From Oceanospirillaceae bacterium (GTDB taxonomy: Bacteria; Pseudomonadota; Gammaproteobacteria; Pseudomonadales; Balneatricaceae), in assembly GCA_013373085.1 (NCBI GenBank), contig JABXIM010000051.1, forward strand, positions 1 to 64,000: 64,000 nucleotides of DNA, in the 5' to 3' direction. Below the pieces are notes generated by a model. The model searched no databases and was not told where the DNA came from. It saw nothing but the letters and a program-made list of their open reading frames with translations. This document shows positions 15,429 to 47,850 of this stretch, piece after piece. How positions within the stretch are numbered: position 1 is the first letter of the stretch; the number at the start of each line of letters is the position of its first letter. Position numbers and translations under genes: made by a program.

Positions 15429-15581
15429 TTTGTCGGTTTCCCTTTTATTGTTATACGCAGGCCGCCAACACGGCCACCGTCAGGTTGAAATCTAACAAAG
15501 CCCTCCGGGGAAATGGGTAAAGTAACGCAAGGAAAAGTAACAAAGTGTAACCGTGGGTCAGTCGCGAGACGCTGGGTGGTT

Positions 15582-15742
15582 ATTAACCTGGTGTGCAAAT
15601 AGGTTCCCCGCCCTACCTATTTGCACATCACGCCACTGAAACGGGCGCAGGTGCGCGGACATGCTGGTTTCCGCGGCGTTCGCATTGGCCTGCGGCCAAT
15701 GATGAAGCATCCCTGCTTCATGTATTAACCCGCCGGGTTAAT
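15582..15742 (+). repeat. Five-hairpin structured intergenic element, copy A
   Basis: attaacctgg...gggttaat with five consecutive inverted repeats; inverted homologous copy at 47502-47657. Confidence 0.9.
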
Positions 15743-15959
15743 TTGAGCGCAGTGAATTCCACCAGTGAGGCGTCAGGCGCCTGGCCGCTAGCGCAACGAG
15801 CATCTGTGATGCTTAACGCATACCAGGAAAGAGGCGTGGCGATGCAGGCAGACCGCCTCTGGTCTACCCGACACTGCGGTATCAAGGGGCAGTAGCACGG
15901 CTGTTGCGTTACACTTTTACCCGCATGACTCTTCTTTATCGACCGATTGGGCCTTGCCG

Positions 15960-47471: not shown

Positions 47472-47500
47472 AGACGCCGCCGTTTGGCGGCGTCTCTATT
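47472..47500 (+). terminator. Rho-independent terminator after eda
   Basis: agacgccgcc-gttt-ggcggcgtct followed by ctattt. Confidence 0.8.
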
Positions 47501-47501
47501 T

Positions 47502-47657
47502 ATTAACCCGGCGGGTTAATAGGTGAAACAGGGATGTTTCACCATTGGCCGCAGGCCAATGCGAACGCCACAGAAACCAGCATGTCCGCGCACCTGCGCC
47601 CGTTTCTGTGGCGTGACGTACAAATAGGTAGGGAACCTATTTGTACGCCAGGTTAAT
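47502..47657 (-). repeat. Five-hairpin structured intergenic element, copy B
   Basis: Reverse complement aligns end to end with 15582-15742, one 5-nt loop indel and about a dozen substitutions. Confidence 0.9.
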
Positions 47658-47850
47658 AGCACCACTTTCCGCCGCAACGGGCAATGGCGGGTGTTTATCC
47701 CTCTCCAGATCGTCTATGCTAGCCCGAAACGCCGAGCGCTCCAGAGTGAGAACGGGGCCCGCGCCAACGCTAGATTGCTGTACTGTCCGGCCGAAGGAAT
47801 CGACCGGAAGGTAATCTTTAAGTAACGTGGAAACAGGAAGTAACCACGCC

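Follow-up and report, generated by a model that had tools for sequence, protein, structure and literature searches.

A non-autonomous IS630-type element with a conserved five-hairpin interior and candidate CsrA/RsmA-binding loops

Why should a block of five back-to-back hairpins occur twice in one stretch of bacterial DNA, once on each strand? The window analysed here is a 64,000-nucleotide stretch from an Oceanospirillaceae bacterium (contig JABXIM010000051.1 of assembly GCA_013373085.1). Copy A lies at 15582-15742 (+) and copy B at 47502-47657 (-), and the two are 89% identical. An initial annotation had described two inverted copies, each with five hairpins and complementary outer ends, and all of these were found again in both places. 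Hairpin 2 is mismatched in copy A and perfect in copy B; the difference in length falls within the hairpin-1 loop, where the annotation had placed the sole indel. A scan of the whole window for at least three back-to-back perfect hairpins (stem of at least 7) returned only copies A and B. Their RNA folds depart strongly from dinucleotide shuffles (z of -5.6 for copy A and -8.2 for copy B), and very stable folds are predicted on either strand of the element. No open reading frame accounts for the block, as had been claimed; at ~160 bp it is too short for a transposase. Copy A sits between a sugar-ABC binding-protein gene and a corA-like gene, copy B between eda and the gene for an NMT1/SsuA-like binding protein. 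Downstream of eda there is a terminator-like hairpin (window 47472-47495), and copy B starts directly behind its T-rich tail. When the TA duplication described below is included, the limits move outwards by one base at either end, to 15581-15743 and 47501-47658. The features are as follows.

15581..15743 (+): copy A of the proposed MITE with five hairpins, TA target base pairs included (the right TA now reads as TT)
15581..15591 (+): left terminal inverted repeat of copy A, TATTAACCTGG, matching the IS630 ends of L057-L063
15592..15627 (+): hairpin 1 of copy A, with an enlarged GGA-type loop, AGGGCGGGGA on the - strand
15631..15678 (+): hairpin 2 of copy A, with an internal loop and an inner stem-loop at 15647-15664
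15683..15701 (+): hairpin 3 of copy A, CATTGGCC-TGC-GGCCAATG
15702..15721 (+): hairpin 4 of copy A
15708..15715 (-): CAGGGATG inside hairpin 4 of copy A, fitting the RsmA/CsrA consensus CANGGAYG
15724..15742 (+): hairpin 5 of copy A, containing the right terminal inverted repeat
47501..47658 (-): copy B of the proposed MITE, with TA at either side
47502..47520 (+): hairpin 5 of copy B; terminal inverted repeat TATTAACCCGGCGG at 47501-47514
47522..47543 (+): hairpin 4 of copy B
47529..47536 (+): CAGGGATG inside hairpin 4 of copy B, a CANGGAYG-type motif
47543..47561 (+): hairpin 3 of copy B
47566..47613 (+): hairpin 2 of copy B
47617..47647 (+): hairpin 1 of copy B, with an AGGGA loop on the + strand
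47648..47658 (+): terminal inverted repeat of the other end of copy B, with TA

The ends of the block point to how it may have moved. A terminal-repeat scan of G001, a complete sister genome, found TATTAACCCGGCGG in pairs that point towards each other across 1102-1105 bp. The resulting elements of ~1.1 kb are bounded by the terminal repeat of the MITE, TATTAACCYGGCGG, and contain open reading frames of 344 and 346 aa that match an IS630 transposase model (E of 3e-66 and 3e-70; IS630 family by NCBIfam NF033545, Pfam DDE_3). The left end of the MITE and one end of the insertion sequence have TATTAACCYGGCGGACAAATAGG in common, and one insertion-sequence end extends, like the MITE, into ACAAATAGG, so that TATTAACCYGGCGG(ACAAATAGG) stands at the ends of both. 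TA duplication, which is typical of IS630, was read from L142, a copy of a 183-bp subfamily related to the copies in the window: it is flanked by TA, whereas the empty site in three sister species has a single TA, implying duplication of the target. The empty site of L081, a 156-bp copy, is altered, and the flanks of L081 and L138 have changed too far to be read. The copies are dispersed and have no transposase of their own, as expected of a MITE. The shared ends and the TA duplication thus bear out the earlier suggestion of a non-autonomous mobile element and support its assignment to the IS630 type, as a MITE that an IS630 transposase would have moved. Within G001, L057 and L058 are two distinct IS630 elements that have the same terminal repeat and transposases ~52% identical, and in the IS630 copy L063, IS21-like and IS3-like genes break up the element (judged by eye from the open reading frames). 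L064 and L066 are solo 21-bp palindromes, TATTAACCCGGCGGGTTAATA, either minimal elements or deletion remnants.

The same evidence bears on the proposal, also made in the initial annotation, of a RAYT/REP complex repeat (BIME-like) mobilised by a Y1 transposase. REP, REPIN and BIME sequences with RAYT (TnpA-REP) are likewise short intergenic hairpins in many copies, but they need the Y1 enzyme and have neither such terminal inverted repeats nor a TA duplication. The element is no short palindrome devoid of terminal repeats and target duplication; its ends are those of a DDE IS630 element. We reject the RAYT/REP reading as exceedingly improbable.

How widely is the element spread? The annotation had called for a search for further copies in the host genome and its relatives, and many were found. 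The host genome (5.78 Mb in 249 contigs) gave 33 BLAST matches, fragments included, and 32 matches to R1, a covariance model made from element copies, which amounts to ~30 copies; R1 found 30 and 43 in two complete sister genomes. Many copies are present in all six genomes of the same genus, and few other genera in the family have any. Among named genomes, a pattern scan placed the element in Marinobacterium profundum, rhizophilum, sedimentorum and nitratireducens, and also in Motiliproteus coralliicola and Pontibacterium granulatum. Insertions were intergenic in 94 of 94 checked cases, often no more than tens of bases from a gene end. They occur in both orientations, with no clear or significant bias relative to neighbouring genes. 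Searches of plasmids and phages gave no match to the element, and spread by these routes was rejected on that ground; two relatives likewise had no match in plasmids. An intact matching transposase is present in G001, G003, G004 and G005, and only stop-ridden copies in G002; none was found in the draft assemblies G000 and G006. A MITE can outlast its partner transposase, and since the window's genome yielded no matching one, its copies of the element may be stranded. Draft contigs of G006 (for example L048 and L055) begin or stop in near-identical copies, implying that the element breaks assemblies.

The copies also show what has been preserved. Differences between copies A and B had been noted to keep pairing, and among 33 copies this pattern holds: 24 of 54 pairs carry double changes, in 111 cells compared with 32 +/- 4.5 when shuffled and 8-18 when partners were slid. 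This excess over both controls upholds the view that selection has acted on the nucleic-acid structure of the element. A functionless parasitic MITE, in which arm-to-arm template switching keeps palindromes perfect and so mimics covariation, would look similar, and the inverted loop of L041 and a partial internal duplication in L178 (= L014/L017) do resemble template switching. Instant copying between arms, however, should yield compensated changes even among the closest copies. In 57 copies of the 156-bp subfamily, the compensated share of differing pairs rises from 0% below 2% divergence to ~40% above 12%; below 4% there are 53 single and 1 double pair changes, close copies differing on one side of a pair only. 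Loops, moreover, are conserved where stems have been replaced. Template switching as the only cause of the covariation is thus disfavoured by the divergence test, and the parasitic reading is very unlikely. Close copies differ on one side and compensation climbs with divergence; compensation is therefore stepwise and takes place in the propagating lineage, so that inserted copies decay while the lineage that spreads is held to pairing.

The hairpin core reaches well beyond these genomes. R1 matched 15 of 296 genomes drawn from the order; these relatives keep the hairpin order with different stems, many with ends TATTAAC-YGGC. R2, a model built from this order-level set, matched 37 of 369 genomes of the class (Gammaproteobacteria), and in several of these relatives the same core lies within quite different ends, such as TTAAGGAACCTCTGAA and TAACAGGATGTTGAAAAA (L293-L315 have other terminal repeats). 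In the 152 kb searched for the class-wide alignment there was no match at E <=1e-5 outside an element. Since the order- and class-level matches include elements with different ends, the five-hairpin core is, to judge from these comparisons, much older than the MITE of the window. Across 55 class-wide sequences the stems are almost wholly replaced yet still paired: 52 of 54 pairs are doubly changed, with 817 cells versus 230 when shuffled and 117-223 when slid, in an alignment that was fitted to the structure and so leans these counts towards it. The covariation that the annotation had proposed to seek in relatives is thus present, and its idea of a repeat family is borne out in genus, order and class. 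One class-level locus differs in layout: in genome G340, at L305 (about 1501-2100), four to five core units follow one another in tandem next to a tRNA gene, and the array has no transposon ends.

What could the interior be for? On the strand complementary to that used in the initial annotation, here called the GGA strand, the outer stem of hairpin 4 varies and its loop stays fixed: C 98%, A 98%, N, G 94%, G 96%, A 93%, N (mostly a pyrimidine), G 98%. CA(N)GGANG fits hairpin 4 in 46 of the 55 class-wide sequences, and A(N)GGA occurs in the hairpin-1 loop in 47, compared with 0-1 of 55 for hairpins 2, 3 and 5 and 0-3 on the opposite strand; these frequencies are partly selected, the class-wide matches having come from models that already contained the loop sequence. 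Genus copies retrieved by BLAST instead of a model have the motifs likewise (50/57 and 51/57). For RsmA the consensus is CANGGAYG; for CsrA, SELEX gave RUACARGGAUGU (PMC7705225). The element thus presents GGA in hairpin loops of this consensus, and the two variable positions of the hairpin-4 loop are precisely those at which CsrA/RsmA accepts different bases. Hairpin 2 has a conserved apical loop and a conserved internal loop of its own. Additional hairpin modules, GTACAGGAAGTAC with CGCATGGATGCG and CCATGGATGG with GCAGGAGC, whose GGA loops are on the opposite strand, are present in some of the copies (L143, L144, L169, L172, L174, L179, L189, L190, L194; L016, L091, L185, L196), and in L041 the hairpin-4 loop is inverted on an unchanged stem, a loop-inversion event.

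We consider the best reading, with a probability of roughly 55%, to be a transposable element with an RNA cargo that carries two CsrA/RsmA-type sites. The DDE transposase of an IS630-family insertion sequence would recognise the inverted ends of the MITE, excise it and reinsert it at a TA, which would be duplicated. Its interior is a conserved structured module, with hairpins in the order 4-3-2-1 on the GGA strand. Read-through from a neighbouring gene would produce GGA-strand RNA, in which hairpins 4 and 1 could present CANGGANG and A(N)GGA loops to the global regulator CsrA/RsmA; the transcript in which the element lies would then come under CsrA control, or CsrA would be titrated if many copies were transcribed. 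Transcription, CsrA binding and any effect on genes are predictions from sequence. Several observations weigh against the CsrA reading: insertion is unbiased in orientation relative to neighbouring genes, a sigma-70-like promoter was looked for near copy B and not found, and the extra GGA hairpins of some copies lie on the opposite strand. RNA is also expected to tolerate G-U on its own strand. As a pointer to the RNA strand, G-U asymmetry amounts to a weak lean to the GGA strand within the genus (40 versus 22; 69 versus 52) and is absent across the class, where G-U pairs are scarce, equal on both strands and as rare as A-C mismatches (65 versus 61 per 2700).

Because G-U is rare on both strands and orientation is unbiased, a role as DNA also fits, with the hairpins single-stranded or cruciform at replication or transposition and a DNA-binding protein reading the conserved loops. 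Almost purely Watson-Crick pairing suits DNA, as do elements in both orientations and the inverted hairpin-4 loop of L041. However, no requirement for hairpins is known for IS630 transposases, the partner IS630 elements lack such a row, and the conserved loop is a consensus for RNA binding that only one of the strands preserves. We regard the DNA role as rather unlikely. An RNA role without CsrA, in which insertions are tolerated because the element shields or terminates read-through transcripts or serves as a substrate of RNase III, is doubtful to a slightly greater degree. The exclusively intergenic insertions close to gene ends and the very stable folds on both strands are in its favour, and RNase III is known to process NEMIS, another MITE; but no T-tract follows the element's hairpins, and the fixed CANGGANG loop and the apical and internal loops of hairpin 2 would go unexplained.

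As a MITE, the element belongs to a known kind. RUP of pneumococcus and Correia/NEMIS of Neisseria are IS630-mobilised bacterial MITEs with a TA target, and they are similarly short, intergenic and numerous, with no open reading frame, IS630-family terminal inverted repeats and TA duplication. Unlike them, the element of the window has an interior of five hairpins whose loops are fixed and whose covariation extends through order and class, and related cores occur with other terminal repeats. The enterobacterial repeats RU-1/2/3 (ERIC-like) are comparable by description in being about 100-170 bp, intergenic and MITE-like, and the abstract on them mentions no five separate hairpins with CsrA-type loops (PMC2759123). 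Searches of Rfam, including the CsrB, RsmY and RsmZ covariance models, gave only tRNAs and chance-level matches, and a known Rfam RNA was rejected. The initial annotation had staked its proposal on further copies, covariation and the absence of a known Rfam or repeat family; copies and covariation were found, with no Rfam match. Open-licence papers, searched for the end and hairpin sequences, for a MITE with CsrA and for Marinobacterium MITEs, held nothing relevant. The conserved interior, the CsrA-type loops and the survival across different transposon ends thus match no Rfam family and no open-licence paper that we found.

The decoy RNAs CsrB/CsrC and RsmX/Y/Z present GGA motifs in hairpin loops. 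The motifs of the element are of the same CANGGAYG type, and the L305 tandem array resembles a decoy RNA; unlike these RNAs, the element is dispersed and mobile rather than a fixed sRNA gene, has only two sites per unit and matches no Rfam family. A broader reading, which we put forward tentatively and think somewhat doubtful, is that of a class-wide transposable family with a CsrA/RsmA-binding RNA module as cargo, repeatedly given different transposon ends and rewiring or buffering the Csr/Rsm network through dispersed decoy or regulatory sites, with a CsrB-like tandem array in one genome.

Even without a role for CsrA, this is an undescribed structured nucleic-acid family, with stems nearly all replaced across the class and pairing and two loops fixed, for which a function is wanted. 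Mobile elements usually carry promoters or genes. If the preferred reading, a mobile CsrA/RsmA-type RNA module, is true, bacteria may carry an undescribed transposable regulatory RNA. It would offer a simple evolutionary path to CsrA targets or decoys. Scattering an RNA module that is under selection and serves a global post-transcriptional regulator would also give transposons a new means of shaping the regulons of bacteria.
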